A stretch of DNA of 64,000 nucleotides from Crossiella sp. SN42 (GTDB lineage: Bacteria; Actinomycetota; Actinomycetes; Mycobacteriales; Pseudonocardiaceae), in assembly GCF_023897065.1 (NCBI RefSeq), contig NZ_JAMHIV010000004.1, positions 186,001-250,000 on the forward strand. The letters run 5' to 3'. The notes below the pieces were generated by a model. That model saw only the letters and a program-made list of their open reading frames with translations. It made no database searches and was not told the origin of the DNA. Of this stretch, positions 40,975-55,800 are shown piece by piece. Position numbers and translations under genes: made by a program. Each line of letters opens with the position of its first letter. Positions within the stretch are counted from its first letter, which is position 1.

Positions 40975-42111
40975 ATGAGGTTGGTCTTCGCCGCCGCGGG
41001 CGGACTTCTTGGACTGGTCCTCGTGGTTGTTGTCAGCGTTGGCGGGTCGGGCGGAAGTGGCCCACCGGCGACCCCTCCACCCGGTGGTTGCGTCACGGAA
41101 GGCCCTGGCGGCGAGGAACCTCCGCACTCGCCGAGGGAGTTGCGGCTCAACGCGAGCCAGATGGCAGCGGCCAGGGTTGTGGTGTCGGTGGGCAAGGGCA
41201 TGGGAATCGCCATGCGCGGCATCGCACTCGGCCTGGCTGTTGCGCTGCAGGAGTCCTCACTGAATCCATCCTCGGTGAAAGGCCGAAGCGCCGGGCTGTT
41301 TCAGCAGCAGGGCGAGTACTACCAACACATCGACCGGCTCGATCCGGCCGCAGCCTCATGGGCCTTCTACGACATGCTGCTCAAGAGAGTCCCGGGCTAC
41401 GCGGACCCGGCGAATGTGAGCTTTGCCGCTGCGGCACAAGAGGTACAGCGGTCAGGCGCCGGCGCCCACTGGTACGCGAGGTATGAACGCTGGGCAACTG
41501 CCATGGCCCACCAGCTCTATGACGGCGCACCGACCGAGCCACGCCCTGGCCAGCCACGCTGCAAGGTCGGAGGAGGCTCAGGCCCTATCAAGGTCCTGAC
41601 TCGCGGGCTGACCGTCGTGCTACCGCCGGAAGCTGGAGTGACCGGAGAAGTGACGGCACCCACAGCACAGGCCGCCACGGCGATTGCCGCGGCCCTGAGC
41701 TACCTCGGCACACCGTATGCCTGGGGCGGGGGTGGAACGAACGGGCCGGGGAAAGGAATCCGAGACAACGGGCAAGGCGATCGACACCGTGACTATGAGA
41801 AGACCGGGTTCGACTGCTCAGGGCTGACCCAGTATGCCTGGGCACAGGCCGGGATCCACATCGCCCGACACTCCGGGACTCAATTCGTCACCGGGAGATC
41901 CAAAGTGGACTGGAACGCAGCCCAGCCCGGAGCACTGTTGTTCTGGACCCGCGCGAAGGTGACGCACGTGGCGATCTTCCTCGGCCGCATCAACAAGCAG
42001 CTCATGATGGTGGAAGCACCTCACTCCGGCTCGGTGGTCAAGGTGAGTCCTGTCCGGGAGGAACTCATGAGGTCCCAAGCCGTGCACAGTTGGACCGATG
42101 TCGCTCGCTGA
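40975..42111 (+). CDS. Two-domain peptidoglycan hydrolase (lytic-transglycosylase-like plus NlpC/P60)
   Basis: A 378-aa protein, equivalent to TcpG/VirB1-type enzymes that open the wall for the channel. Signal/anchor at residues 1-22 (LVFAAAGGLLGLVLVVVVSV). The first domain (about 60-185) has GIALGLAVALQESSLNPSSVKGRSAGLFQQQ, the E-S...GLFQ pattern of a lytic-transglycosylase-like domain. The second is NlpC/P60: YLGTPYAWGGGG, GFDCSGLTQYAWAQAGI with catalytic Cys near residue 280, and THVAIFLG with the catalytic His. The polar insertion around residue 265 is typical. It begins six bases after the preceding stop. Confidence 0.93.
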   Translation: MRLVFAAAGGLLGLVLVVVVSVGGSGGSGPPATPPPGGCVTEGPGGEEPPHSPRELRLNASQMAAARVVVSVGKGMGIAMRGIALGLAVALQESSLNPSSVKGRSAGLFQQQGEYYQHIDRLDPAAASWAFYDMLLKRVPGYADPANVSFAAAAQEVQRSGAGAHWYARYERWATAMAHQLYDGAPTEPRPGQPRCKVGGGSGPIKVLTRGLTVVLPPEAGVTGEVTAPTAQAATAIAAALSYLGTPYAWGGGGTNGPGKGIRDNGQGDRHRDYEKTGFDCSGLTQYAWAQAGIHIARHSGTQFVTGRSKVDWNAAQPGALLFWTRAKVTHVAIFLGRINKQLMMVEAPHSGSVVKVSPVREELMRSQAVHSWTDVAR

Positions 42112-42176
42112 AAGGTGGGCCGCCATAAGGACTCTTGTCACCGCCACATGTCATTCCGTGCTCGTGTGGAGGAGAC

Positions 42177-44165
42177 ATGCCTTTTCGTGTTGGTCGTACC
42201 CGCTTGGTGACACGGCGGGAGCAGCTGCAGCGCGTCATGCTGGGACTGGCCGCGATCATGGGACTGGTCGCCGCAATCTGGCTGGCGACTGGGGTACTGT
42301 CCTGGGTGGACAGTGGGCGGTGGCACTCGCTGACTGTTGAGCTGCGGCCCTTGGTTAAGGACGGCGGTGGTCACGGCCTACTGGGTCTGCCCCGGCCAGG
42401 TGACGGTAAGCCTGGCGAGTCCGCGGTCCAGCTTCCCATTGTTGTTGACTTCGCCGGTGCAGGCGCCGGGACGCTCGGTGTGGCCGCTGTGCTCTGGGCT
42501 CTGTGGTTGCGCTACGCGCTGCTGCCGATGCACCGAGTGTTCCGGGAGCCTGCACGGTGGCAGAACCTAGCGGGCAGGCGGCAGATTCGTGCTGTGCTGG
42601 GCGTACGCGCCAGCCGCCGGACAGGCAAGTGGACACTTCCCTACACGACGCGGTGGCAGCGATTCTGGTTGCCGGCCAACGCGTTCGGGTGGTCGCTCGG
42701 GCGTCCGATGCGGCCTGGGTGGCAGCCTCGCATGTGGATTCCGTTTGAGTGGAGGGTGCGGATCATCGCTCGCTCGGGCTGGGGAAAGACCGAAGCCGTT
42801 CTGGTGCCGACGATCCGCAGCCTTCCCGGCCCGGCGATCGTCGGCTCGATCGAGCCGGCGATTTTCACCCGCACCGTGATAGCCCGGCGATTCCGTCGAC
42901 GTGAGCTGCGCTGGCGGTGGCTGAGCCTAGTTCTGCGTTTGTGGTGCAGGCCGCGGGAGTTCCCTGTGGCGGTGCTCGATTGCACGGACCCGGAAGCACG
43001 GCAGGGCGCTGGGTGGCCTCAGGTCACGTGGAACGTGCTCGTGGGCTGTGAGTCGCTGGATGTTGCGACCCGATACGCCACCGCGCTGGTGCACGGGATT
43101 GAAGCAGGGCCTGGCGAGGAGAGAGGAGTGGGCAACGATGGTTTCTTCCGTCAGTCCGCTTTGGAGGTGCTGGCTGCGTGGTTTCACGCCGCGCGGCTCG
43201 GCGGCCTGGAGATCGAGCATGTGCTGAAGTGGGTAGGCCGCATTGATCACCCGCAGCCGCGGACGGTGTTGGAGCGTCATCCGGATGCGGATCCGGCGGC
43301 CTTGCAGGCGCTGCGGACCCACTTGGACTCTATGGCGGCGGCCGGCACTACCAGCGGCGTGCGCCGCTATGTGAGTCTGGCTGTGCGGTCCCTGGGAACC
43401 GAGGATGCAGCCCGGATCAGTGGGTCCCAGCATGACCGTCACTTCGACATTGAGGACTTCATCCGGCGTGGCGGCACGTTGTACATCTTGGCCTCGCCCG
43501 AACGTCTGCAGCGCGTCGGTCCGCTCGTGGGGCTGTTCGTGGCTGAGGTGTTCATTGGGGCGCAGCGGGTTGCCTTGGCTCAGCCCGAGCCTCATCGGTT
43601 GCCGGAGACGATGATCGGTGTCTTCGATGAACTCTACGAGGGCGTGCCGGTTCCCAATTTGCCGTACATCGTCACGACGTTGCGCAAGTACAACATCTCC
43701 ACGATCCACGCGGTTCAGTCACAGGTGCACGAAGACTCCTTGTATGGCCGTGCGGCACAAGCGCTGAGGGGGTCAGTGCGCTGCACTGTGGTGGGTGGTT
43801 TGGACATGGCCGTTGCGCAAGAGCTGACTCAACGGGCGGGTCCGAGCACGGTGGTGACGCCAACACGTTCGCATCACATCACCGGTCACAGCTCGGAGAC
43901 CGTCACGCGCGAGGAGACTCTGCCGATCTCCGACCAGCAGGCGCTCGGTGATGGTGAGGCGATCGTGGCCGTGGCGGGGCTGCCACTGTTGCTGGCCCGC
44001 TTGCGGTCGACGCATCAACGCTTCTGGCTGAGCAGGAAACTGCGCAAGGAGTCAGCAGCGGTCAGTCGAGCAGTTCGGCAAGCACGAGGCCTCACCACAA
44101 CAGATCGGGCCGGACACAGCGAGGCCGCCAAGCGGGCAGGGTTCGACCGGAGGGACGTGTCGTAG
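42177..44165 (+). CDS. VirD4/TraG-like type IV coupling protein
   Basis: About 662 aa. Two membrane segments at the N-terminus (VMLGLAAIMGLVAAIWLATG near 20-40 and GVAAVLWALWLRYALLPM near 100-118), then the cytoplasmic ATPase: Walker A IIARSGWGKTEAVLVP at about residues 195-210, Walker B IGVFDELYEG near 481, and TLRKYNISTIHAVQSQVHEDSLYG shortly after, as in TraD/VirD4 proteins that hand the relaxase-DNA complex to the channel. I use the ATG at 42177, preceded by GGAGGAG; an in-frame GTG further upstream lacks such a site. Confidence 0.93.
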   Translation: MPFRVGRTRLVTRREQLQRVMLGLAAIMGLVAAIWLATGVLSWVDSGRWHSLTVELRPLVKDGGGHGLLGLPRPGDGKPGESAVQLPIVVDFAGAGAGTLGVAAVLWALWLRYALLPMHRVFREPARWQNLAGRRQIRAVLGVRASRRTGKWTLPYTTRWQRFWLPANAFGWSLGRPMRPGWQPRMWIPFEWRVRIIARSGWGKTEAVLVPTIRSLPGPAIVGSIEPAIFTRTVIARRFRRRELRWRWLSLVLRLWCRPREFPVAVLDCTDPEARQGAGWPQVTWNVLVGCESLDVATRYATALVHGIEAGPGEERGVGNDGFFRQSALEVLAAWFHAARLGGLEIEHVLKWVGRIDHPQPRTVLERHPDADPAALQALRTHLDSMAAAGTTSGVRRYVSLAVRSLGTEDAARISGSQHDRHFDIEDFIRRGGTLYILASPERLQRVGPLVGLFVAEVFIGAQRVALAQPEPHRLPETMIGVFDELYEGVPVPNLPYIVTTLRKYNISTIHAVQSQVHEDSLYGRAAQALRGSVRCTVVGGLDMAVAQELTQRAGPSTVVTPTRSHHITGHSSETVTREETLPISDQQALGDGEAIVAVAGLPLLLARLRSTHQRFWLSRKLRKESAAVSRAVRQARGLTTTDRAGHSEAAKRAGFDRRDVS

Positions 44166-44714
44166 ATGTGGCTGGATGCGTTTGATCCAGCGGATGTAGG
44201 TCCCCTGCTGGAGCTGTACTATGCCGAGCCGGCGCCGGATGAGAAGATGCGTCGGCCGGTGCGTCGGCCGTGGAATCTGGCTGCGCTGGACGAACAGGAG
44301 TCGACTGCTCAAGCACGTCTGTCGCATGCCTTCGCGGCGTCGTGGAACCGGACGTGCGCGGTGCGCGTCTCCGAGCTGATCCCTCCATGCTGGCCACAGC
44401 ATGAGCAGCTGGCGCAGGAACTCGCAGTGATGGTGTGGTCCTGGTACTACGCACATCTCGACGAGCGTGCGGCACCGTTCACCGCGGTTGAGTTTCGGAC
44501 TCGTTACGTTGTGGCTTTCCGGACCCGACTGCCGAAGACCCTCGGAGACAACGGATTGCTGTGCCAAGAAAACCAACATGATCAGCGCTGGCGCGAGGCC
44601 GTGGACAAGCAGCTAGAAGACTTCGAGCAGAGGATGCGCGACGACCAGGCCGATCAAGATGCGACTTGGCGCGTGTCCAGCCTCGACTTCGGTTTCGCCG
44701 TCGAACGTGCGTGA
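44166..44714 (+). CDS. Hypothetical protein, last gene of the T4SS operon
   Basis: A 182-aa soluble protein beginning directly after the stop of the coupling-protein gene. It is Trp- and Glu-rich (MWLDAFDPADVGPLLELYYAEPAPDEKMRRPVRRPWNLAAL), mostly helical, with SELIPPCWPQHEQLAQELAVMVWSWYY in the middle and a charged coiled-coil-like segment (KQLEDFEQRMRDDQADQDATW) near the end. Perhaps an adaptor to the coupling protein; no family recognised. A truncated transposase follows within about 30 bases. Confidence 0.7.
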   Translation: MWLDAFDPADVGPLLELYYAEPAPDEKMRRPVRRPWNLAALDEQESTAQARLSHAFAASWNRTCAVRVSELIPPCWPQHEQLAQELAVMVWSWYYAHLDERAAPFTAVEFRTRYVVAFRTRLPKTLGDNGLLCQENQHDQRWREAVDKQLEDFEQRMRDDQADQDATWRVSSLDFGFAVERA

Positions 44715-44745
44715 ATCCAGAAGCTGCGCCTTCCCGAACAGTACG

Positions 44746-45093
44746 GCGGTCGGCAGCGATCCGGTCGATCGGTAACAGGATGCCGTCGAGGATGACGTAG
44801 ACCTTGCGCGTGGCTATCCGTGTCGCGCCGGCCAGGTCCGGGGCGAGGCCCGCCAGGAGTTGGACCGCCTCGTGGATGTAACGACAGACGGTAGCCAGGC
44901 CGACGCGGAACCCGGCGGCAAGGCGGGTGTAGGTGTCACCACAGCGCAGGTGGACCAGGACAAGCAAGGCTTGGCGGCCGGGGTCGAGATTCCGCCGCCT
45001 GCTGCCGATCCGCCATCGATGCGAGCTCAACTTCCGGGCGAGGAACCGGAGGTGCGAACTGGACAGGTCGATCGCGGGTGGGCAGACAAGCAC
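44746..45093 (-). pseudogene. Truncated IS5-type transposase (N-terminal part only)
   Basis: The minus-strand reading LDPGRQALLVLVHLRCGDTYTRLAAGFRVGLATVCRYIHEAV, then RKVYVILDGILLPIDRIAADR, is the HTH_Tnp_4 and start of DDE_Tnp_4 domain of IS5-family (IS112-like) transposases. The first catalytic Asp (LDG) is present, but similarity stops shortly after IAADR at about 44746, losing the rest of the catalytic domain. The end abuts the T4SS operon, so the element was probably truncated when the region to its right was inserted or deleted. Not expected to be active. Confidence 0.8.
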
Positions 45094-45307
45094 GCGAAGC
45101 TCTTGGTGATTGCCTTGCTCTTGGTCGAGAAGTCATCTACCAGGAGCTTCGCCAGTCTCCACCACGGCCGCAGCCCACACCGCCAGGTTGGAAAGAACTC
45201 ACTGACGGGCGACCACCAGCCACGTCCGACCCGAGCAGTGGCAGCTCGCGCAGACGCCCCCGACAGGTGCGGATCTGCCACATCCACCGCTCACTCAACC
45301 GGACGCC

Positions 45308-45336
45308 TTCACGCCTCGCGTTCGCTTCGCTACCGT
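45308..45336 (+). promoter_or_regulatory. Predicted promoter of the radical SAM operon
   Basis: TTCACG at 45308-45313 (four of six matches to TTGACA), a 17-base spacer and TACCGT at 45331-45336 (TANNNT type). Six bases separate the -10 from the ATG at 45343, so the transcript would begin at or next to that ATG. Confidence 0.45.
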
Positions 45337-45342
45337 GCGTAG

Positions 45343-45405
45343 ATGAGCTTGTGCTCCACGCAAGCCCTGATCAATGCGAAGGGGGCGCTAATTCTTTGTC
45401 TCTGA
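45343..45405 (+). CDS. Leu-rich 20-residue mini-ORF (leader peptide or precursor peptide)
   Basis: Encodes MSLCSTQALINAKGALILCL. Five of 20 codons are Leu, three of them near the end (CTA, CTT, CTC), including CTA and CTT that are rare in high-GC actinomycetes. It has no ribosome-binding site but starts where transcription from the predicted promoter would start, as in leaderless mRNAs. It lies 45 bases before the radical SAM gene. By analogy with the leuS leader on the other side of the cassette it may be a leucine-sensing leader peptide; alternatively it may be the substrate peptide of the radical SAM enzyme. Both are inference. Confidence 0.45.
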   Translation: MSLCSTQALINAKGALILCL

Positions 45406-45450
45406 CTGCTGCGCGCACTCGCTTATCTGACCAGGGAGATAGGAGTGAAC

Positions 45451-46881
45451 ATGTCCACCGCGATTCAAAATCTGCCGCCACTTCAGCAGCAAATCCTCCG
45501 GGAGAACTTCGACTACTCAAGCCCTTTCTATCGTGGCCGCGACCTGCATGCGATGCTCGACTGTGCATGCGCTCCGGAACTGCCCCTGGCATCTCCTCCG
45601 TTGCGAGGTATGCCGGTCCCGCAAGACGTACCGCTCAGCGTTCCGTTCAACGCGAAGCTTCGTGAAGAGTTCTTCGGTGGCATCCTGTACGACTGCGACC
45701 AGCACCGACACTACATGGTCGACTTGGCCGCGTACCGAATGCTTCGGGCTGCGACGCAGGGCGGGCGCATCGGACGCGAACTTGTGGCGGACACCGCTCG
45801 TGGCGGGGCAAGCGAGGCCACTCTCACCGCATTGGTGAGCAACGGCCTGCTCGCCCCGAATGCCAGCGCCAAGACCATCGAGCACTTCCCGGCACGCGAT
45901 CTTAGCTTCGACTACCTACAGAGCCCGATCATCGTCGAGGTCGAGGTCACCTACGGGTGCTTCCGTGCCTGCCGTCACTGCGCATATGAGTCATCGCCCG
46001 AGGCCCGCATGCCGAACGAACTGACGGCGGAGCAATGGGCGACGGTCTTCAGGAAGCTCGCCGACGCGGGTGTCCTCATCGTCCAGCTTACGGGCGGAGA
46101 TCCGCTCTTCCGGGATGACTCGTTCGACATCGTCGATGCCGCCGACGACGCCGGGCTCAGCGTCTACGTCCGTAGCGACACGGTGGCGCTCAACGCCGCC
46201 AACTTGAGCCGTATCAAGGGGCTACGCCACCTGTGGCACATCGGGACCAGCCTCGACGGTGCCGATGCAGCAACGCACGACTGGATACGCGGACGCGGCG
46301 CGTTTGACGTGTTCAAGCAGCGAGTCAGCGCCCTGGCGTTCGAGGGCGTCGACGTGTCGGTCGGGGCCACGCTCCACAAGAACAACTACACGACCCTCCG
46401 CCAGATGGGGCAGCTCTCGGCCGAACTGGGTGCGCAGTGGTTCGACATCGGCTTCCTGTCACCAGTCGGACGAGGCGTCAACCTGGAGCACCTTGTTCTG
46501 GACAGTGACGAGATCGCCCGGAGCCTCAATTCCTACCTGGACGGCATCCGAGCAGGCGAGTACGCACCGTCACACGCTCACTACCTACACCGTGCACAGC
46601 AAGACAAGCCGTTCGAGGACCTGGCCGAACTGGTCGACATGCTCCCCTACGTCACCGAATGGCCGTTCAGCCGGCTGCGCCTGAACCCCACGGGATCGTC
46701 CTACACCGCGGGCAAGCTCAAGGGTTCCGACTACGCGGGCGGATACAACGCGCTGAGCAACTCGATCGAACACATCTGGGATAACAGCCCGAACCTGCGG
46801 CAGCTCCGCCAGATCGGTGCTGGGCGGCGTGTTCACAGCCTTGACTATCGCCTCCTTCGTTCGAGCCACGAGTTCATGTGA
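45451..46881 (+). CDS. Radical SAM enzyme with PqqD-like N-terminal region
   Basis: About 476 aa. The radical SAM 4Fe-4S motif is CFRACRHC (CxxxCxxC) at about residues 169-176, preceded by VEVEVTYG. VLIVQLTGGDPLFRDDSF (GGxP-like) and VYVRSDTVALN follow. Residues about 70-140 (FGGILYDCDQHRHYMVDLAAYRMLRAAT...LTALVSNGLL) resemble a PqqD-like peptide-recognition winged helix, as in RiPP maturases. No SPASM/Twitch cysteines are seen at the C-terminus. The ATG at 45451 has AGGAG five bases upstream (a GTG at 45445 is possible). It heads a three-gene cassette with a methyltransferase and an M14 peptidase, so peptide modification is likely but unproven. Confidence 0.88.
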   Translation: MSTAIQNLPPLQQQILRENFDYSSPFYRGRDLHAMLDCACAPELPLASPPLRGMPVPQDVPLSVPFNAKLREEFFGGILYDCDQHRHYMVDLAAYRMLRAATQGGRIGRELVADTARGGASEATLTALVSNGLLAPNASAKTIEHFPARDLSFDYLQSPIIVEVEVTYGCFRACRHCAYESSPEARMPNELTAEQWATVFRKLADAGVLIVQLTGGDPLFRDDSFDIVDAADDAGLSVYVRSDTVALNAANLSRIKGLRHLWHIGTSLDGADAATHDWIRGRGAFDVFKQRVSALAFEGVDVSVGATLHKNNYTTLRQMGQLSAELGAQWFDIGFLSPVGRGVNLEHLVLDSDEIARSLNSYLDGIRAGEYAPSHAHYLHRAQQDKPFEDLAELVDMLPYVTEWPFSRLRLNPTGSSYTAGKLKGSDYAGGYNALSNSIEHIWDNSPNLRQLRQIGAGRRVHSLDYRLLRSSHEFM

Positions 46882-46901
46882 CCCATCCGTTCGATGACCG
46901 C

Positions 46902-46934
46902 AGCGTCCGGACGCCTCTCGGGCGTCCGGACGCT
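46902..46934 (+). terminator. 14-bp hairpin between the radical SAM and methyltransferase genes
   Basis: AGCGTCCGGACGCC pairs perfectly with GGCGTCCGGACGCT over a five-base loop. It lies 20 bases after the radical SAM stop and 17 bases before the methyltransferase start, so it may cause partial termination or set mRNA stability and expression ratio within the operon. Confidence 0.65.
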
Positions 46935-46951
46935 CGTGCATGGAGGAATTA

Positions 46952-47695
46952 GTGACCGAGAGCTTCGAGTTCCCAGGTGAGTACTACGAGATCATCCGGC
47001 GAGACTTCCGCAACCTGGCGGCCGAGACCGACTTTTTCGCCTCCTACCTGCCCAACGGCGGCCGGGTTCTGGACCTCGGCTGCGGAACGGGTACCAACCT
47101 CCGTGCCCTACACCAGCTCGGACACACCTGCATCGGCGTGGACCAGAGTCGCAGCTTCATCGACTACGCCAAGAACGCGGGCGGTGAGATCGAATACGTT
47201 CACGGGCGAGCGGTCGACTTCGAGACCAGCGAGAAGTTCGACCTCATCTACACCGTCTTCGTGACACTCAACTACCTACGGCGGGATGAGGTCGGACCAC
47301 TGCTTGCCAAGGTCCGTACCTGGCTACGACCTGGCGGCCGGTTTGTCGTGGACATCGGCCACATGCTCAACTTCGTGGACAGCTACCAGCCGTACATCAT
47401 CGCGCACCATAAGCACGACGGGGTCCTCATCACCCGTCTCATTCGCCACATGGTCAACGCGCACGAGGCCAACTGGCGACACGAGGAGACCCTCATCGTC
47501 CGGCAGCGAGACGACCAAGTCTCGATGTACGACAACTTCTTCGACCAGATGGCCCTGACCGCCCCGGAGCTTCGCAACCTGTTGCAGTGCGCCGGGTTGG
47601 AGGTCGTAGAAGAGTTCGGGAGCTTCCGCAAGGATCCGCCAGCACGGCAGGGCAAGGGACACCTGATCTTTGTCGCCGTTCACGCCGATGGATAA
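46952..47695 (+). CDS. Class I SAM-dependent methyltransferase
   Basis: About 247 aa. Motif I VLDLGCGTGTNLRAL at about residues 39-53 binds SAM; CIGVDQSRSFIDYA is motif II; FDLIYTVFVTLNYL (motif IV-like) and LRPGGRFVVDIGHMLNF (post-motif) follow. Substrate unknown. The GTG at 46952 is chosen because GGAGG lies five bases upstream; an ATG at 46940 is in frame but has no such site. Overlap of its stop with the next start (eight bases) shows coupled translation with the M14 peptidase. Confidence 0.9.
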   Translation: MTESFEFPGEYYEIIRRDFRNLAAETDFFASYLPNGGRVLDLGCGTGTNLRALHQLGHTCIGVDQSRSFIDYAKNAGGEIEYVHGRAVDFETSEKFDLIYTVFVTLNYLRRDEVGPLLAKVRTWLRPGGRFVVDIGHMLNFVDSYQPYIIAHHKHDGVLITRLIRHMVNAHEANWRHEETLIVRQRDDQVSMYDNFFDQMALTAPELRNLLQCAGLEVVEEFGSFRKDPPARQGKGHLIFVAVHADG

Positions 47696-48785
47696 GACCC
47701 GGGCCGCGCTGTTCCTGGAGACCTCGTTCCCCACCGGCAACGGCCTCGTCGTGATCCGCGACGACGAAGTCCTGCTGGATCGTGAGCTTCGCGATTCGAC
47801 GGGTGACCGGTGGTACTGGCACGTTCGAGCGACGGCCGCCCAGGACACCGAACTGCGGGTGCGCCTGGCAAGACCGCTGCTACTCGGTCAGTTCGGACCG
47901 GCGGCGCGAACAGCCGACGAGTATCACTGGCTGTGGCCCATCGCTGGACCGGACACCGCCTTCGATCTCCAGATCGCTGCGGGTACCACCGTCTACGCCA
48001 GCGCCACGATTCCCTATGGCGCGCACGAGATGGCTGGCTTTCGACGGCGGCTCGGCAGCGCGCTGTGGTGGGGAGACTTGACGACCAGCGAAGGCGGTCG
48101 AGGGGTCCCCGTGGTGAAGGTCCGTGCGCCGGAGTCGCGCCGCGTGATCCTGCTGACCGGCCGTCACCACGCCTGCGAAGCCATGGCGTCCTTCGTTCTG
48201 GAAGGGGCGATCGAAGAGTTCGTCGCCCTGCGGCGCGACGGAGACGCGACAGCCCGTACCTCCGAGCTGATCGCGCTGCCCATGATGGACGTGGACGGTG
48301 TCCACGATGGGGACCAAGGCAAGGCCCGAACGCCGTGGGACCATAACCGCGACTACGGGCCGACGAGCCGGTATCAGGCCGTCTCAGCGCTCCGCTCGAT
48401 GTTGGCGAACGAGCGACGCGCTGTGTACGCGCTCGATCTGCACACGCCTGGTCTTCGTGGGCCTATCGAGGAGCGGCCCTACGTCGTGGCCTCAGCCGAT
48501 CCTGGCGACGCCGAGACAGCCGCGGAACTGCTGAACCTGTTGAACGCCGCCGATGGCCGCGCGCGAGGCGGCTCGCGTTTACTGTTGTTCGAGTATGAGT
48601 GGAACTCGTCTTCGTCCTCGGGGCAGCGGTGCTGCGCCGCATGGCTACGAAGCCTGCCCTTGACGCGGCTGGCAACGACGATCGAGTACCCGAACGCGGT
48701 CGACCGGGGCCAGCCGATCAACCCAGCAGACGCGCGGGACTTCGGTGCGATCCTCATGCGCTCGCTGCTGACCATGGTCGAGTAG
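47688..48785 (+). CDS. M14-family zinc metallopeptidase
   Basis: About 365 aa. The zinc site is visible as HHACEA (HxxE, about residues 161-164) and LDLHTPG (third ligand His near 252); TIEYPNA near 335 supplies a Glu where M14 enzymes have the catalytic Glu. The N-terminal 140 residues form a beta-rich domain (RWYWHVRATAAQDTELRVRLARPLLLG), as in cytosolic-carboxypeptidase-like M14 enzymes. It likely trims or deconjugates a peptide or an amino-acid amide. The ATG overlaps the methyltransferase stop. Last gene of the cassette; a strong bidirectional hairpin follows. Confidence 0.85.
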   Translation: MDKTRAALFLETSFPTGNGLVVIRDDEVLLDRELRDSTGDRWYWHVRATAAQDTELRVRLARPLLLGQFGPAARTADEYHWLWPIAGPDTAFDLQIAAGTTVYASATIPYGAHEMAGFRRRLGSALWWGDLTTSEGGRGVPVVKVRAPESRRVILLTGRHHACEAMASFVLEGAIEEFVALRRDGDATARTSELIALPMMDVDGVHDGDQGKARTPWDHNRDYGPTSRYQAVSALRSMLANERRAVYALDLHTPGLRGPIEERPYVVASADPGDAETAAELLNLLNAADGRARGGSRLLLFEYEWNSSSSSGQRCCAAWLRSLPLTRLATTIEYPNAVDRGQPINPADARDFGAILMRSLLTMVE

Positions 48786-48795
48786 CGAGCGTTCG

Positions 48796-48830
48796 CGTGG
48801 TGGCCTGCGGCCCCTTGGCAGGCCACCACG
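48796..48830. terminator. 13-bp bidirectional terminator between convergent genes
   Basis: CGTGGTGGCCTGC pairs perfectly with GCAGGCCACCACG over a nine-base loop, between the M14 peptidase stop (48785) and the leuS stop (48839). Serves both transcripts. Confidence 0.75.
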
Positions 48831-48838
48831 CCCACAAC

Positions 48839-51370
48839 TCATCCCACGACGATGTTCACCAGCCGGCCCGGCACGACAACCACGCGCTTGACCGACCGGT
48901 CGCCGACCGCCTGCTCAACCTCTTCCAGTTGAAGCGCGGCCTCTCGGATAGCGTCCTCGGACGCGTCCTGGGGAACGCTGATACGGCCCCGCACCTTGCC
49001 GTTGACCTGACAGGCCAGCTGGACCGTCTCGGTGCGCAACAGCGCCTCGTCGGGCTCCGGCCATGGCTGCTTCCAGACGTGCTCGCCCGTAAGCATGTAG
49101 TAGCACTCGCTGGCCATATGCGGCGCGAACGGGAGCAACAGCGAGGCGGCGGTGCTTAGGGCGAACTTCACCGTGTCACGGTCGATGCCCTCCTGCAGGG
49201 CCTTGCTGCATTCGTTGGTCAGCTCCATCAACGCCGCGATGGCTGTGTTGAAAGCGAACCGGCCCGACATGTCATCGGTGACCTTCTTAACCGCCCACGC
49301 GACCTTCCGGCGCAGCGCGAGGTCAAGCTCAGGATCAGCCGCGCCGCCGATGGTGGCCAGCTCGGAGGTCGCCACCTGAGTCGTGAACCGCAACAACCGC
49401 CGCAGGAAGCGGTACACGCCCTCGACGCCCGTGTCCGACCAGTCAGCGCCGGCATCCGGCGGCCCCATGAACAGGACGTAGCACCTCGCCGTGTCGGCAC
49501 CGTACTTCTCGATGATCGTCCGAGGGGACACCACATTCCCCTTGGACTTCGACATCTTGGCACCGTTCCTGGTGATCATTCCCTGCGTGAACAGGGCACC
49601 GAAGGGCTCCTGAACCGGCAGGTGTCCGAGGTCGGCCAGCGCCTTGCACAGGAATCGCGAATACAGTAGATGCAAGATCGCGTGCTCGATGCCGCCGATG
49701 TACTGGTTGATCGGCATCCAGCGCTGTGCCGCGTCTATGCCCAACGGCGCCTGCTCGTTTTTCGGATCGCAGTAGCGCAGGTAGTACCAGGACGAGTCCA
49801 CGAAGGTATCCATCGTGTCGGTCTCGCGCCGGGCAGGTCCGTCGCAGTGCGGGCAGCGCGTAGCTACCCAATCCGCGGCAGCAGCCAGTGGAGACTTGCC
49901 CTTCGGGGTGTAGTCCTCGATGTCCGGAAGCCGCACGGGCAGCTGGTTCTCGGGCACCGGCACCAGGCCGCACGAGTCGCAGTAGACGACCGGGATCGGG
50001 CAGCCCCAGTACCGCTGCCGAGACAGCAACCAGTCGCGCAGCTTGTACTGCACAGTGGCTTTGCCGTGGTCTTGCTGCTCCAGCCACGCGATGATCGTCT
50101 TCTTCGCCTCGGCAACGCCCATCCCGTTCAGGAAGCCCGAGTTGATCGCTGGGCCCTCGGCGGTGTAAGCCTCGCCGTCGAAGCCCTCGCTCGTCTCGAC
50201 TGTCCGGATGATCGGCAGGCCAAAGGCGGCGGCGAAGTCCCAGTCCCGCTGGTCCTGGCCGGGCACGGCCATGATCGCGCCGGTACCGTAGCCCATCAGC
50301 ACATAGTCGGCGATGAACACGGGAATCTGCTCGCCGTTGACCGGGTTGGTGGCGTATCCGCCCGTGAACACCCCGGTCTTGTCCTTGCTCTCCTGGCGGT
50401 CCAGCTCGGACTTGAGACCGGTCGCCGTGCGGTACGCGGCCACCGCCTCGGCTGGTGTCGCCGCGCCCGCCGTCCACTGGCTGTCGACTCCGGACGGCCA
50501 GGCGTTTGGGACGATTTTGTCGACAAGAGGATGCTCAGGAGCCAGTACCAGGTACGTCGCGCCGAACACCGTGTCTGGCCGGGTCGTGAAGACCTCGATG
50601 TCGGTCCCACCAGCGGGGAACCGGATCGTAGAGCCCTCCGAGCGGCCGATCCAGTTCTGCTGCATCAGCTTGACGTGCGTGGGCCAGTCCAACCCGTCCA
50701 GGTCGTTCAGCAGCCTCTCCGCGTACTGAGTGATGCGGAAGAACCACTGCTCCAACTGCCGTTGCTCGACCAGGCTGCCGCAGCGTTCACAGCGCCCGTT
50801 CACGACCTGTTCGTTCGCCAGGACCGTCGCGTCCTTGGGGCACCAGTTGACGGCCGCCTGCTTGCGATACGCCAGTCCGGCCTTAAACAACTGGAGGAAG
50901 ATCCACTGAGTCCAGCGGTAGTACTCGGGAGAGTGCGTACTGATTTCGCGGGTCCAGTCGATCGAGATGCCCCACTGCTTGAACTGCTCCCGGAACGACG
51001 CGATCGACTCGTCCGTCGAGGTGCGCGGGTGCTTCCCAGTCCGGATGGCGTGATTCTCGGCGGGCAGACCGAAGGCGTCATACCCCATCGGGTGAAGCAC
51101 GTAGTAGCCCTGGCGACGCATGAAATGAGCCACGGCGTCGCCGACGGCGTAGTTCTTGAGGTGGCCAACGTGCGGCTCGCCGCTGGTGTACGGCAGCATC
51201 TCCAGCACGTATGCGGTCTTGTCCGCAGGGGCGGTGTTGGATACCTCCCAGGACCGCTCGTCACGCCACACGCGCTGCCAGCGCTCGTCGATGGCACGGG
51301 GGTCGAAGTCTTCGTCCGTACTGACGCCCGGGACCGCTCCGGTCATGCCTTCTGACCCTTCACCCACCAT
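48839..51370 (-). CDS. leuS: Leucyl-tRNA synthetase (short, non-housekeeping type)
   Basis: About 843 aa. Charges tRNA-Leu with leucine. Class I signatures: MLPYTSGEPHVGHLKNYA (HIGH box), KMSKSKGN (about residue 605), and an intact CP1 editing domain with TTRPDTVFGATY and GYGTGAIMAVPGQDQRDWDFA, including the conserved Asp. A zinc-type WCPKDATVLANEQV...CERCG and CDSCGLVPVP...CPHCDG are present. Actinobacterial housekeeping LeuRS are, from memory, about 950-970 aa, so this looks like an additional copy of another lineage. I use the ATG at 51370, with GAGGTGG eight bases upstream (a GTG at 51382 is possible). Expression appears controlled by an attenuator (51428-51512). It faces the radical SAM cassette. 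Confidence 0.97.
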   Translation of the reverse strand: MVGEGSEGMTGAVPGVSTDEDFDPRAIDERWQRVWRDERSWEVSNTAPADKTAYVLEMLPYTSGEPHVGHLKNYAVGDAVAHFMRRQGYYVLHPMGYDAFGLPAENHAIRTGKHPRTSTDESIASFREQFKQWGISIDWTREISTHSPEYYRWTQWIFLQLFKAGLAYRKQAAVNWCPKDATVLANEQVVNGRCERCGSLVEQRQLEQWFFRITQYAERLLNDLDGLDWPTHVKLMQQNWIGRSEGSTIRFPAGGTDIEVFTTRPDTVFGATYLVLAPEHPLVDKIVPNAWPSGVDSQWTAGAATPAEAVAAYRTATGLKSELDRQESKDKTGVFTGGYATNPVNGEQIPVFIADYVLMGYGTGAIMAVPGQDQRDWDFAAAFGLPIIRTVETSEGFDGEAYTAEGPAINSGFLNGMGVAEAKKTIIAWLEQQDHGKATVQYKLRDWLLSRQRYWGCPIPVVYCDSCGLVPVPENQLPVRLPDIEDYTPKGKSPLAAAADWVATRCPHCDGPARRETDTMDTFVDSSWYYLRYCDPKNEQAPLGIDAAQRWMPINQYIGGIEHAILHLLYSRFLCKALADLGHLPVQEPFGALFTQGMITRNGAKMSKSKGNVVSPRTIIEKYGADTARCYVLFMGPPDAGADWSDTGVEGVYRFLRRLLRFTTQVATSELATIGGAADPELDLALRRKVAWAVKKVTDDMSGRFAFNTAIAALMELTNECSKALQEGIDRDTVKFALSTAASLLLPFAPHMASECYYMLTGEHVWKQPWPEPDEALLRTETVQLACQVNGKVRGRISVPQDASEDAIREAALQLEEVEQAVGDRSVKRVVVVPGRLVNIVVG

Positions 51371-51427
51371 GGTTGTTGCCACCTCGGTTACGTCGCCGGT
51401 TCGCGACTGACATCAGCCGCGAACATG

Positions 51428-51451
51428 AAAAAACCCCTCGTATAAGAGGGG
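51428..51451 (-). terminator. Rho-independent terminator of the leuS attenuator
   Basis: On the minus strand CCCCTC pairs with GAGGGG around a six-base loop, followed immediately by six T. It stands between the leader peptide and the leuS start, so transcription would stop here unless an alternative structure forms. Confidence 0.85.
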
Positions 51452-51453
51452 TA

Positions 51454-51483
51454 GCCGTGCTGTCGCTGTCGCTTCAGCACGGC
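51454..51483 (-). promoter_or_regulatory. Antiterminator-capable hairpin of the leuS leader
   Basis: GCCGTGCTG (51475-51483) pairs perfectly with CAGCACGGC (51454-51462). The 5' arm contains the last codons and the stop of the leader peptide. Upstream GAGG can extend the helix by pairing with CCTC of the terminator stem, which would disrupt the terminator. A ribosome at the leader stop would mask the 5' arm; a ribosome stalled on the Leu codons would leave it free. This is the geometry of classical amino-acid attenuation. Confidence 0.65.
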
Positions 51484-51512
51484 CTCATAAGGAGCAGGAA
51501 GGCTCCGTTCAT
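51474..51512 (-). CDS. leuS leader peptide with three consecutive Leu codons
   Basis: Encodes MNGAFLLLMRPC and a TGA; the Leu codons are CTG, CTC and CTT. There is no ribosome-binding site, but the -10 box TACACT ends six bases before the ATG, so the transcript should begin at the ATG (leaderless). A small inverted repeat (GGAGC/GCTCC) spans the Leu codons. The peptide ends inside the 5' arm of the antiterminator hairpin. It should sense charged leucyl-tRNA by ribosome stalling. Confidence 0.7.
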   Translation of the reverse strand: MNGAFLLLMRPC

Positions 51513-51518
51513 ATCCAG

Positions 51519-51547
51519 AGTGTAGCGCTAGGTGACGACTCGGTCGC
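51519..51547 (-). promoter_or_regulatory. Predicted promoter of leuS and its leader
   Basis: Minus strand: -10 TACACT (complement of 51519-51524), 17-base spacer, weak -35 GCGACC (complement of 51542-51547; three of six matches). Spacing to the leader ATG is six bases. Confidence 0.45.
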
Positions 51548-51638
51548 AGCACCCCTACCACATAGCACCGTGCCAGCCAAGCGGCGTGTCTGTGGCACGT
51601 CGCGCGGGGTGCACGGCGTTCTGCCACGATATGGCGGC

Positions 51639-52157
51639 ATGACGGACGAGATCGTCGACCGCGAGGTCGAGCACGATGTTGCCTGGAGGATGACTGTCGA
51701 GCTGTTCAACCGTCCCACCTGGCCAACGGCCATGTGGAGCGGTTCGCCAGCCGACGCGGCACGTCAACTTTTCGAGTTCGGTGACGTCATCGTTGACCTT
51801 GTGAAGCCGGTCCGTGACCGGGCGCCGCTCGTTCTTGAGCACGCGATCCAACTTGTGAGGTCGGCCGTAGTCTGTGCGAGCCTGCTGGACGAGCACGATA
51901 TTGAGCGGATCAGTTCCGCCGATCGGGCAGGAGCACTCTGTGACAGCCTTGCCCCCTTCGTCGCGGTCGCCACCCGCGTGCTCAACGACCTTGCGGATCA
52001 GTTCGGTTTCCGAACTGTGCTCATGCCCAGCCCAGCGCAGCGCCGGAACCTATCCCTGGGTCATGAAGGGTTCGATCACCACGCGCTGAAGGACGGTATC
52101 CAGGCCCTCGTGTACTGGTCGGACGACAAGCGCCAGTCGCATCAGACGACCGTATGA
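51639..52157 (+). CDS. Hypothetical protein, divergent from leuS
   Basis: A 172-aa soluble, helical protein (MTDEIVDREVEHDVAWRMTVELFNRPTWPTAMWSGSPADAARQLFEF...). It contains PLVLEHAIQLVRSAVVCASLLDEHDIERI and a final GIQALVYWSDDKRQSHQ. I start it at the ATG of 51639, where the sequence becomes protein-like; no ribosome-binding site is visible, and the gene may be leaderless. It shares its upstream region with the divergent leuS leader. Family not recognised. Confidence 0.6.
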   Translation: MTDEIVDREVEHDVAWRMTVELFNRPTWPTAMWSGSPADAARQLFEFGDVIVDLVKPVRDRAPLVLEHAIQLVRSAVVCASLLDEHDIERISSADRAGALCDSLAPFVAVATRVLNDLADQFGFRTVLMPSPAQRRNLSLGHEGFDHHALKDGIQALVYWSDDKRQSHQTTV

Positions 52158-52182
52158 CCTGAGGAGCTCGGCCCTCGTCGCG

Positions 52183-52476
52183 CACGTTCGCATCCGGCTC
52201 GACTGCGAGGAACGTCCCGTGGACCGACGCGCACCCGATCCCTGCGACGTAACGCCAACGATGCCCCGAGTTGACCCGTCCCATGTGGACAGACTGGCCG
52301 CGGTCCAGCGCGTCGGTAGCGAGCCGCGCGGCCTGGTTGCCGAGCTTCCACCCCCTGGTGTGGCCGAGGAACAACACGTCCACCACCGACCAAGGCACGT
52401 CCGCCGCCGTCATCCCGTCCCGGGCGACCAGCGCCGCTCGGAACCCGCGCTCACGGATCGGCTCCAACCACGGAGC
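52183..52476 (-). pseudogene. Relic of a VHMGRVN-family protein, copy 2
   Basis: Minus-strand reading APWLEPIRERGFRAALVARD, then DVPWSVVDVLFLGHTRGWKLGNQAARLATDALDRGQ and VHMGRVNSGHRWRYVAGIGC...GTFLAVEPDANV. This is the C-terminal half of the same family as the relic at 12961-13155. The N-terminal half is missing: a TAG directly precedes APWLEP, and unrelated sequence lies upstream. Frame continues past the conserved end into unrelated residues. Not expected to be functional. Confidence 0.7.
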
Positions 52477-52584
52477 CTACCGGGCCAGCATTACCAACAT
52501 TCCGAACACGAATAGCCCGGTGACCCAGTCCGACTTGACCACGAGCTGTCGGGCGAAGGTGGCCGCGGTGAAACGGCAGGCCAC
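52477..52584 (-). CDS. Possible 35-aa membrane peptide or gene fragment
   Basis: Minus-strand GTG frame reading VACRFTAATFARQLVVKSD then WVTGLFVFGMLVMLAR and TAG. It has the composition of a short single-pass membrane peptide and G/C third positions, but no good ribosome-binding site. Its stop lies directly before relic copy 2 in the same frame, so it may be part of a rearranged gene. Confidence 0.3.
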   Translation of the reverse strand: MACRFTAATFARQLVVKSDWVTGLFVFGMLVMLAR

Positions 52585-52704
52585 CTTCGATCGGGCTGTA
52601 TCGTCGCGTCAGCGCACACGACCCGGCCCTGGCCGCCGTCCAGTGGCTGGCGGCTGAGACAGCCTGGACAAAGCCTGAGCGGATAGCTACCCAGCACCTC
52701 GGCG

Positions 52705-52851
52705 TTAGGCCACCGGCGCTCCTTCCTGGCCGCCGCTGACAGCGTGAACGGAGCCCTCGGCCTTGACGGAGGCGACCGGTTCAGCCTGGAGCAAGTCGCC
52801 GACCTCACAGCCCAGAGCGGCACGGATCTTGATGAGGTCCTCCAGTCGGAG
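52705..52851 (-). pseudogene. C-terminal relic of a Cro/C1-type HTH regulator
   Basis: Directly after the relaxase stop, in the same frame, the minus strand reads LRLEDLIKIRAALGCEVGDL, then LQAEPVASVKAEGSVHAVSG and a stop. LEDLIKIRAALGCEVGDLLQAEP is the typical last part of an HTH_26/Xre-type domain (L..L.KI..AL.C.VGDLL). The DNA-binding helices are missing. It indicates a recombination junction at the 3' end of the relaxase gene. Confidence 0.6.
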
Positions 52852-55800
52852 TTAGGGCTCGGGTGCTGGGATGGGCTGAGGTGGCGGCTCGGGGTCGATG
52901 TCGACGACCGGGTGTGGTGTGGGAGTCGCCTGGTGGTCGGCGATGGGTGGCGGTAGCTGGGGTTGGTGGACGGTGATGTGGTCGCGGGCGGCGCCGCGGC
53001 GGGTGAGCTCTTCGGCGTGACGCACGGGATCGGGTTGGTCGTCGCGTAGTTGTTTCTCTTCGCGCAACTCCACCAGGTTGATCGATTCGTGTACGACGCG
53101 CTGGAAGACGAGTTCGTGATGCTGTTTCGCGGTTTGGGCGGTGGCGTGGTCTTCGGCTACTGCCTTGGCGCGTGCGTGATCCTCGAAGTCCTTCTGCAGG
53201 GCGCGGTGTCGGATGATGATCCGTTGGTAGTTGTCCGGTGGGCCGATGAGGCGGGTGATCTCGGAGGCTTCTTCAGCGAGTTGTTCGGCGCTGTGGAGGG
53301 ATTCTCGTCGGACTCGTTCGGCCTCGGCGATGGTGTGTTCGATGCGGGCGTTTGCATCGCGGGAGAGGTTGCCTGCGGCGCGGTCGTAGAGAGCTGTGGT
53401 GAACCGCTGTTGCGCGGCTTCGGCGGTTTGGCGGTGGCGCTGGTAGCCGGCGTAGAGCTCGAGGCCGCGTTCGGCGAGTGCGGCGCGTTCGCTCCAGGTG
53501 TCGAGTTCGTCGATGAGTGAGGTGAGCTTGGGGCCGGTCTCGTTGTCGGCCTGGTCGAGGAGATGAGCGGCCTGGTCCTCGGCGAGCCGGCGTTGTGTCT
53601 CCAGGTGTTGCAGGGCGCGCTCGGTGACGGCGATGCGGTTGTCCAGTTCCTCGTGGGTGAGGTGACCGTAGGGACGCTGTTGCCAAGCGGCGCCGGAGGG
53701 CGGTTGCCGGGTTGGCCGTTGTGCTGTGTGGTCCTGGCCGACAGTGGACTGAGATTCGGGCTCGGGTTGTTCGCCGGGCTCCTGCGCTGGTTGTGGCGCT
53801 GGCGCTGGTGGCGTTGGTGTTGGTGGTTCCGGACTTGCCGGTTCGGTGGGCGTGGGCTCGGCGAGGGGCTGGGTCGCCTCGGGTTCCTGCTGTGGTGCGT
53901 TGTCCGGGGCCGGGGCGTGGTGGTAGTGCTGGTCGAGTTGGGGCAGGTTCCGCGTGAAGGAAAAAACAAGGTAGGCCCCGGGCCGGCGGGCGGTGGCGAC
54001 GTTGTCGGGGTTGATTTTGACGATGGCGTTGCGGACGTCGTCCGGGTCGATGTTGTAGTCGTTGAGCGCGAGATGGATGCGCTGAGCGAGCACGGAGAAG
54101 GTGGGGCTGGTGACGACAGCGTGGACCGCGGGGTGGGTTCCCCAGATGTCGTCGAGGGCGTCTCGGGCTAGGTCGAGTCGTCGTTGGTGTTCGGCTTGTT
54201 GTTCGGCGGCACGTGCTTCGGCGTCGTGGCGTGCTTGGTCTCGTTCGGCCAGTTTGCGTAGGGCGTAGGCGGTGAAGGTCGCGGGGTCTCGGATCTGGGG
54301 TTTGGCGATCTGGCTGAGGTTGAGACGGCTGAGGAGGTCGTGGACGTCGCGGCCGTGGCTGTGCTGGCGCTTCATCATGTGGACGAGGGCGTCGAAGCGG
54401 TCGCTGTTGATGACGCGATCGGCGAGTTCGGGGGCTGCTTCCCATGCCTCACGCAGGATGTCGGCGGCCTGGTCTTGCTCTTGTTGTTGTTCTGCTTCAC
54501 GTTCCGCTTTGTCTTCGGTTTGGCGGATCTTGCGTACGGCGTCGCCGATGCAGAAGATCAGGAAGCCGTTTTTGTCGGCGAACTGGTCTGTGGCGAGGGT
54601 TTCGATGGGGACGTGTTCGAGGACGGCGCGTTGGTCGAAGCCGGCGTAGGTGGCTTCGTCGAGGTGCTCGATGACGCGGTTGAACTTGCTCTCGGTGCTC
54701 ATGCGTTCGATGAGCGGGTAGTGGTCGGGCCAGAGGTCTTGGAGGAGTTCGACGACTTCGCGGTGGCGGCGGGCGAGGTGGTGCTGCTGTTCTGTGCGTT
54801 GTTGTTGTTCTTGGCGTTGTTGGACGCGCTCGGGTTCGTCTCGGGTTCGGTTGAGGTGGCTGCCGATGAGGTTGCCGTCCTCGTCGACGAATTCGGGGTC
54901 TTGTAGGTCGACGACGATGGGCCGGTCGTCGCCGTGGGTGGCGGTTTGGCGGGCGCGGTCGGCGATCTGGGCGATGACGCGGTCTTGGAGGTCTCGGCCG
55001 GCGGGGGTTCCGTAGAGGTGGGTGTGGTCGTCGGTTTCGTAGTCTTGGCGGGCGGCGAAGATGAAGACGGTGTTGCTGTGGCGTGAGGTGGCGACGTGGA
55101 AGCCTGCTGTGTCGGCACCGTGGGCGTAGAACAGGACGGTGCCGCCGCGGTCGAATCCGGCGGGCAGTGTCCAGGTGTTGTTGACGGTCAGGCCTTCTGC
55201 TTTGTGGATGGTCATGCAGTAGGCGAGGCTGAGGCCGCCGTTTTCGATGTAGTCGGGGTGGAGGTCGGCGGTCATGGTGCGGCGGCCTTCGGTGGTGTCT
55301 TGTTCCCATTCGACGCGGATGCTGCCGCGGTCTCCGAGGCCGGTGACGACGCCGCGGTAGCCGTTGAGGACGGGGTCGCCGGTGGTGTGGTACTCGGTTC
55401 TGTCGTTGGCGCGCATCATGACGTGATCGCCGAGGTGGATGGTGAGTTCTCGGCCGGCGCCGAGGTTGTAGGTGCGGCTGTCCCCGAGCTCGTCGTGGTG
55501 CAGGCGTAGTGCTTGGGCGGCGGCGTTGAGTCTGTCGACGGTCTCGTTGGTGGCGGCGAGGAGGATGAGGCCACGGAGCTCGGTGTGCGCGTCGGGTGTG
55601 TGCGTGCGTTGTTCGAGCCAGGTGGAGAGCATGGCGGCGTAGGCTTCGTCGCCGGATTCTTTGATGATGAGTCGTTCGTTGTCGCGCCAGAGGTTGAGGG
55701 CGTCGACGTAGTCTCCGTGGCGCCAGGCCTTGATGGCGGCTCGTTCGTCTTCGAGTTTCTGCCGGCGGTTGTTGCGGAGGGTCGCGCCGTTGACGATTTC

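Follow-up and report, generated by a model that had tools for sequence, protein, structure and literature searches.

A second leucyl-tRNA synthetase with a leucine-codon leader beside three linked enzyme genes on a conjugative element of Crossiella: a candidate antibiotic-and-immunity cassette

We analysed a 64,000-nt stretch of contig NZ_JAMHIV010000004.1 from Crossiella sp. SN42 (hereafter the window), in which a conjugative element carries four linked genes (cassette region 45343–51547). They encode a radical S-adenosylmethionine (SAM) enzyme (rSAM), a class I SAM methyltransferase (MT), an M14-family zinc hydrolase (M14) and, facing these three, a second leucyl-tRNA synthetase (LeuRS, gene leuS). 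The genes probably constitute a mobile antibiotic-and-immunity cassette, in which an rSAM-MT-M14 pathway would make a LeuRS inhibitor and the second LeuRS, behind a leucine leader, would confer self-immunity. The initial annotation of this DNA had offered self-protection by the LeuRS as one of two models; it is favoured by the presence of a second LeuRS in the genome, by changes in all nine members of its clade at two positions that are also altered in AgnB2, and by a conserved leader upstream of leuS, the function itself being predicted from sequence. All four genes named by the initial annotation are present with matching profiles, and the shared terminator that it described corresponds to a perfect inverted repeat between the convergent gene ends:

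45451–46881, plus strand: radical SAM enzyme, 476 residues (PF04055, E 1.1e-15; start ATG 45451)
46940–47695, plus strand: class I SAM methyltransferase, 251 residues (PF13649, E 9.1e-18)
47688–48785, plus strand: M14-family zinc hydrolase, 365 residues (start ATG 47688, overlapping the MT stop)
48796–48808 and 48818–48830, no strand assigned: perfect 13-bp inverted repeat, terminator-like without a T run
48839–51382, minus strand: second leuS, open reading frame (ORF) of 847 residues (TIGR00396, E 8e-298; no LS domain)
51427–51452, minus strand: intrinsic terminator in the leuS leader (ACCCCTC, loop, GAGGGGT, then T's)
51454–51483, minus strand: leader hairpin (GCCGTGCTG/CAGCACGGC), its 5' arm overlapping the leader stop codon
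51474–51512, minus strand: leader peptide MNGAFLLLMRPC, with three Leu codons (CTG CTC CTT)
51519–51524, minus strand: −10-like TACACT, 6 nt before the leader ATG

The second LeuRS and its leader

The host genome also holds a housekeeping LeuRS (contig C17), which matches the window LeuRS in pieces (62, 47 and 38%). The initial annotation had made its proposal depend on the window LeuRS not being the only one in the genome, and the genome indeed has two. The window leuS probably starts at ATG 51370, with GAGGTGG upstream.

A search of 386 family genomes (E ≤ 1e-180) gave matches in 19, of which nine are members of one clade and ten are of a second type (47–49%). The clade comprises the window LeuRS, those of G751 and G757 (genus g24; 82%), that of G737 (another genus; 64%) and those of five genus g3 genomes (65–67%). 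In a tree of 28 LeuRS, the enzymes of the window, G005 and G737 form a clade (support 99/99), 15 family housekeeping enzymes group together (100/100) and so do ten second short-type enzymes (100/100); long branches make the deep placement in this tree unsure. With all nine members the clade has support 95/99 and lies outside the family housekeeping clade; within it the window LeuRS groups with those of G751 and G757 (100/99). G751 and G757 keep a housekeeping LeuRS alongside the clade LeuRS. No LeuRS other than the clade enzyme was found in G737 or in any of the five g3 genomes; all six are drafts (87–97% estimated completeness), so a second LeuRS may have been missed in any single one.

A leader peptide and an intrinsic terminator, which the initial annotation did not mention, lie upstream of leuS (51427–51524, minus strand). 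The leaders of G751 and G757 encode the peptides MSTGFLLLTKPC and MSTGFLLLIGPC, respectively, with identical CTG CTC CTT codons, stop position, hairpin and terminator, and are likewise preceded by TACACT. G751 and G757 are 0.73–0.74 identical to the window in the leader, compared with 0.51–0.54 upstream and 0.60–0.61 downstream; between G751 and G757 the values are 0.94, 0.63 and 0.80. When the window leader alone was shuffled 3000 times (Markov shuffles), a short ORF bearing three consecutive Leu codons arose 83 times, and the conservation is therefore the real evidence for the leader. Leucine leader-peptide attenuators place a conserved, Leu-codon-bearing short ORF before a terminator, and the leader has this anatomy of leucine attenuation. 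Positions 44000–53000 gave no Rfam match, to a T-box or any other RNA family, with hits allowed up to E 1.

The clade LeuRS were aligned with AgnB2 and E. coli LeuRS, and clade-specific residues were sought against references that exclude AgnB2 and the Xenorhabdus and pAtG3_79b LeuRS. A comparison of three clade members with 26 other LeuRS, among which 165 columns are invariant, showed seven of these columns changed in all three. With nine members and 28 references, seven of 160 invariant columns were changed: F26, T66, P70, H86, S126, L748 and Y761. The larger reference set took in two of eight extra second-type LeuRS loci (L072–L079), because frames lacking both a KMSKS and an SMSKS motif were dropped. 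At two of these columns all nine clade LeuRS have T and S where all 28 references have P and N. P70, which is clade-specific as is H86, stands one residue before the HIGH histidine.

AgnB2 is the immunity LeuRS for agrocin 84, with core resistance positions T42, A102 and Q573 (PMC5059758). T66 aligns with T42 (P to T, identical in both) and S126 with A102 (N to S); the chance of finding at least two of the three core positions among the clade-specific columns is 0.0046–0.0049. In our alignment T42 corresponds to E. coli P44, where PMC5059758 prints P45. Beside the HIGH motif, the clade LeuRS has been remodelled where AgnB2 was, perhaps to cope with a different adenylate-like ligand.

In the cassette reading that we favour, rSAM and MT would assemble a small inhibitor of the housekeeping LeuRS, resembling leucine or leucyl adenylate, and M14 would release or trim it. 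The second LeuRS, altered by the HIGH motif at the two AgnB2 positions, would tolerate the inhibitor and keep tRNA-Leu charged, as its residues and its linkage suggest. Leader and terminator may govern leuS in such a way that expression rises when charged tRNA-Leu is lost, as happens when LeuRS is poisoned. The same kind of LeuRS and leader accompany an unrelated biosynthetic operon in genus g24, and in G737 such a LeuRS takes the place of the housekeeping enzyme.

Linked enzymes, relatives and alternative explanations

The initial annotation regarded the genes as one inserted cargo unit, and the same four stand together in a second genus. In G737, rSAM, MT, M14 and leuS follow in that order, on one strand and in one block (identity to the window proteins 51–53, 59, 43–46 and 62–64%, respectively). 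The same gene order at 43–64% protein identity implies that the linkage has survived a long divergence. The flanks of the G737 cassette match the genes flanking the housekeeping leuS in its congener G007 (89% for an inositol-phosphate synthase and 79% for a poly(A)-polymerase-type protein), which places the cassette at the native leuS locus.

We searched 390 family genomes, the host's own included, for rSAM (E ≤ 1e-20) and M14. M14 matched in two, the own genome and G737, both times beside a clade leuS. Full-length rSAM matches came from three, these two and G777; partial matches in G652 and G794 and a 32% paralogue elsewhere in G737 (L046) were not counted. G777 has rSAM (69–70%) and MT (65%) without M14 or a clade leuS. 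The co-occurrence that the initial annotation had proposed to look for is thus found for M14 and broken by the rSAM-MT pair of G777. The clade LeuRS tracks M14 in this small sample, which would fit M14 as the step freeing the toxic form.

These distributions bear on the possibility that the LeuRS is an acquired resistance to another organism's LeuRS inhibitor and the three enzymes are unrelated passengers. Clade LeuRS without rSAM or M14 matches in g3, different neighbours in G751 and G757 and the rSAM-MT pair of G777 without a clade LeuRS all point that way; the confinement of M14 to the side of a clade leuS, in the same order with rSAM and MT across so wide a divergence, points the other way, and we consider this explanation unlikely.

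In G751 and G757 the clade leuS ends 6 and 3 bases, respectively, from a convergent operon (L083, 1234–9043; L084, 1796–9488) whose genes encode, in order, an adenylation-peptidyl carrier protein (A-PCP), a cytochrome P450 (P450), a thioesterase, an amidinotransferase, a desaturase and a second A-PCP. The amidinotransferase matches HsvA (E 2.7e-125). The pocket of the second A domain, read by eye as DAWFLGHVV, is one letter off the leucine code, DAWFLGNVV. The window leuS groups with those of G751 and G757, yet it is G737 that has the rSAM set in common with the window; the clade has therefore seen exchange, gain or loss of biosynthetic partners.

It is an evenly balanced question whether a portable, leucine-attenuated leuS immunity module moves between chemically unrelated pathways (rSAM-MT-M14 here, the A-PCP/P450/amidinotransferase operon in g24). 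Such a module would mark at least two new natural LeuRS inhibitors, one of them without a carrier-protein or adenylation enzyme in its cassette, and its immune LeuRS would be good enough to replace the native one. To our knowledge few natural LeuRS inhibitors have been described; agrocin 84 is the one documented in this analysis. The clade would predict the target ahead of the compound being known, and the T/S pair close to HIGH, at positions that do not vary elsewhere, together with an FLLL leader, provides a sequence handle for finding producers. G737 is a natural case of such a synthetase at the housekeeping locus.

The second model of the initial annotation, in which the LeuRS is a biosynthetic enzyme supplying Leu-tRNA or leucyl adenylate to the rSAM-MT-M14 pathway, is weakened by these results. 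The genes are linked in two genera, and a synthetase relative that serves biosynthesis is known (SbzA; PMC9437257). In G737 and the five g3 genomes, however, the clade LeuRS is the sole LeuRS found; in g3 it occurs without rSAM or M14 matches, and in G751 and G757 beside an unrelated operon. The cassette genes matched no family of aminoacyl-tRNA-dependent ligases, and a Leu-codon leader would suit immunity better than substrate supply. We give this model little credence.

The rSAM has its CxxxCxxC motif at residues 170–177. Its cysteines are at positions 38, 40, 82, 170, 174 and 177 only, so that the C-terminal part, SPASM-like by eye, carries no auxiliary-cluster cysteines. The PqqD-like region that the initial annotation saw in rSAM was not confirmed (no Pfam match to a PqqD/RRE domain); an FGG-type region is conserved among the four relatives aligned. 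M14 shares PF00246 and the HxxE...H...E pattern with zinc carboxypeptidases. The Pfam match is weak (E 2.6e-5, 24.4 bits against a cut-off of 21.6), and the HxxE, H and catalytic E, assigned by eye, are invariant in the window and G737 copies. Its best solved-structure relative has E 0.033, and a structure predicted from the single sequence (mean pLDDT 35) was discarded.

Beyond the family, M14 had no match on plasmids. In the class sample it matched in two of 394, the own genome and G192, the latter set aside as a stray (39% over 102 residues in a 1024-residue frame, E 5.5e-4). For rSAM the class sample (E ≤ 1e-25) gave three of 355, two of them partial matches of 36–37% and the third the own genome, and a scan of genome contigs gave four weak relatives (25–29%) among 22 stretches. 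Thermus thermophilus plasmids (L054, L055) carry an rSAM relative (32.6% over 83% of the query) with an MFS transporter gene after it; no MT, peptidase or leuS is annotated within the 17 kb seen.

A conserved precursor peptide adjoining rSAM, such as a radical SAM pathway to a ribosomally made peptide product (RiPP) would have, did not stand out from shuffled sequence. Among same-strand short ORFs of 12–90 residues (1 kb upstream, gaps and short downstream stretches at three loci), the best match scored 45, against maxima of 37–56 in 20 shuffles; a remote precursor is possible. The missing precursor and the tight linkage would agree with the three enzymes modifying LeuRS or tRNA-Leu instead of making a small molecule. 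In g3, which has no rSAM or M14 match, no LeuRS but that of the clade was found, the rSAM-MT pair of G777 lacks a clade LeuRS, and the Thermus rSAM relative precedes a transporter gene; all this makes such a role very improbable.

Several results weigh against an inhibitor pathway with its own immunity LeuRS. The four-gene linkage is known from two genomes, and in G737 the rSAM gene has one in-frame stop (L040, 11691–13115), so that the pathway there may be decaying, unless this is a draft error. The rSAM-MT pair of G777 occurs with only a P/N-type housekeeping LeuRS, and in genus g3 the clade LeuRS comes with neither an rSAM nor an M14 match. Among the four g3 sequences whose upstream DNA was read, none showed such a leader; G005, G633 and G626 were covered in full, whereas G625 and G634 are too short to tell. 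Predicted folds of the window leader show hairpin and terminator coexisting, with no clear antiterminator of the classical kind. The folds show no way in which stalling would prevent the terminator, so that switching of the leader is an inference. In the LeuRS itself KMSKS is unchanged (KQSKS in AgnB2), the position of AgnB2 Q413 still has R, and the clade changes overlap the 30 changes of AgnB2 in three columns, which is not significant (P 0.11). P-to-T plus N-to-A in A. tumefaciens LeuRS gave no gain in TM84 resistance (PMC5059758), and the residues therefore mark where the clade LeuRS changed, not resistance. In an agrocin-like Xenorhabdus cluster, P and N stand at the two positions of the LeuRS.

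The conjugative element and its host

The four-gene set lies, as the initial annotation had placed it, between transfer genes and a relaxase:

34795–37302, plus strand: AAA_10 ATPase, probably VirB4-like
40975–42111: NlpC/P60 protein
42135–44165, plus strand: VirD4/TraG-like coupling protein of a conjugative element
44479–45093, minus strand: truncated transposase, HTH_Tnp_4 only, at the left cassette border
52852–57918, minus strand: TrwC-type relaxase-helicase

Of the borders proposed earlier, the truncated transposase stands, whereas the supposed relic ORF at 51570–52157 matches no Pfam family.

In the complete genome of a conspecific strain (G624), the only LeuRS found is of the housekeeping type, and VirD4 protein, rSAM and M14 were all without a match, the empty VirD4 search being weak by itself. 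This is consistent with a recent acquisition of the element by the strain of the window.

Comparison with known systems

Among the matches listed from open-licence PMC literature (titles and abstract starts), none dealt with the four-gene set or the leader. The closest parallel is the agrocin 84 plasmid (pAgK84, NC_006277.2, and the same-sized NZ_CP048507.1), where genes for an MT, a radical SAM enzyme and an S66 peptidase share the leuS region, as comparable genes do in the window. Both systems have leuS on a conjugative element beside biosynthetic-type genes, and an extra LeuRS; a second LeuRS beside a housekeeping copy, as with AgnB2, is also found in G751 and G757. The window LeuRS shares with AgnB2 the P-to-T change at T42, a change at A102 and the missing LS domain (for AgnB2, PMC5059758), the last being unspecific, as the second-type L010 lacks this domain too. 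The two enzymes are 40.4% identical, and the core set of AgnB2 is incomplete in the window LeuRS, with T present, S for A and M for Q (Q573). The biosynthetic genes are not orthologous: rSAM is 25% identical over 188 residues (E 7e-5) and MT 23% over 122 residues (E 2.5e-7) to agrocin 84 genes, and M14 has no match to the S66 peptidase. Because the genes match at superfamily level and the residue set is incomplete, the cassette is not a member of the agrocin 84 type.

Other leuS loci provide further points of reference. A Xenorhabdus bovienii megaplasmid (NZ_FO818638.1, L057) has an agrocin-like set of asparagine synthetase A-like, MT, LD-carboxypeptidase, nucleoside phosphorylase, leuS and MFS genes. 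Plasmid pAtG3_79b of Agrobacterium tumefaciens (L056) carries leuS along with transfer genes; Fic and AAA ATPase genes lie nearby, and no gene within the 20 kb seen looks like an obvious biosynthetic neighbour. Both plasmid LeuRS were considered as carriers of the same residues and rejected, with P and N at both positions. Two non-clade short LeuRS, one near ABC transporter, P450, luciferase-like monooxygenase and MFS genes (L044, G029) and one near GNAT, TauD and RmlD genes (L043, G001), are candidates for further LeuRS-linked clusters.

The rSAM shares its core with the TIGR04053, AhbD, mycofactocin and NirJ models, its four best scores (112–85 bits), and falls below the cut-off of each family among the best 25 of 47 matched. 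It differs from these four families in having no cysteines past 177 and no linked precursor found.

A Streptomyces TrpRS is under leader-peptide control. Extra resistant synthetases beside housekeeping copies, some with separate expression, include TrpRS against indolmycin in Streptomyces and plasmid-borne IleRS2 against mupirocin (PMC9437257). Those enzymes serve other amino acids, whereas the window leuS is carried by a transfer element, with candidate biosynthetic genes next to it.

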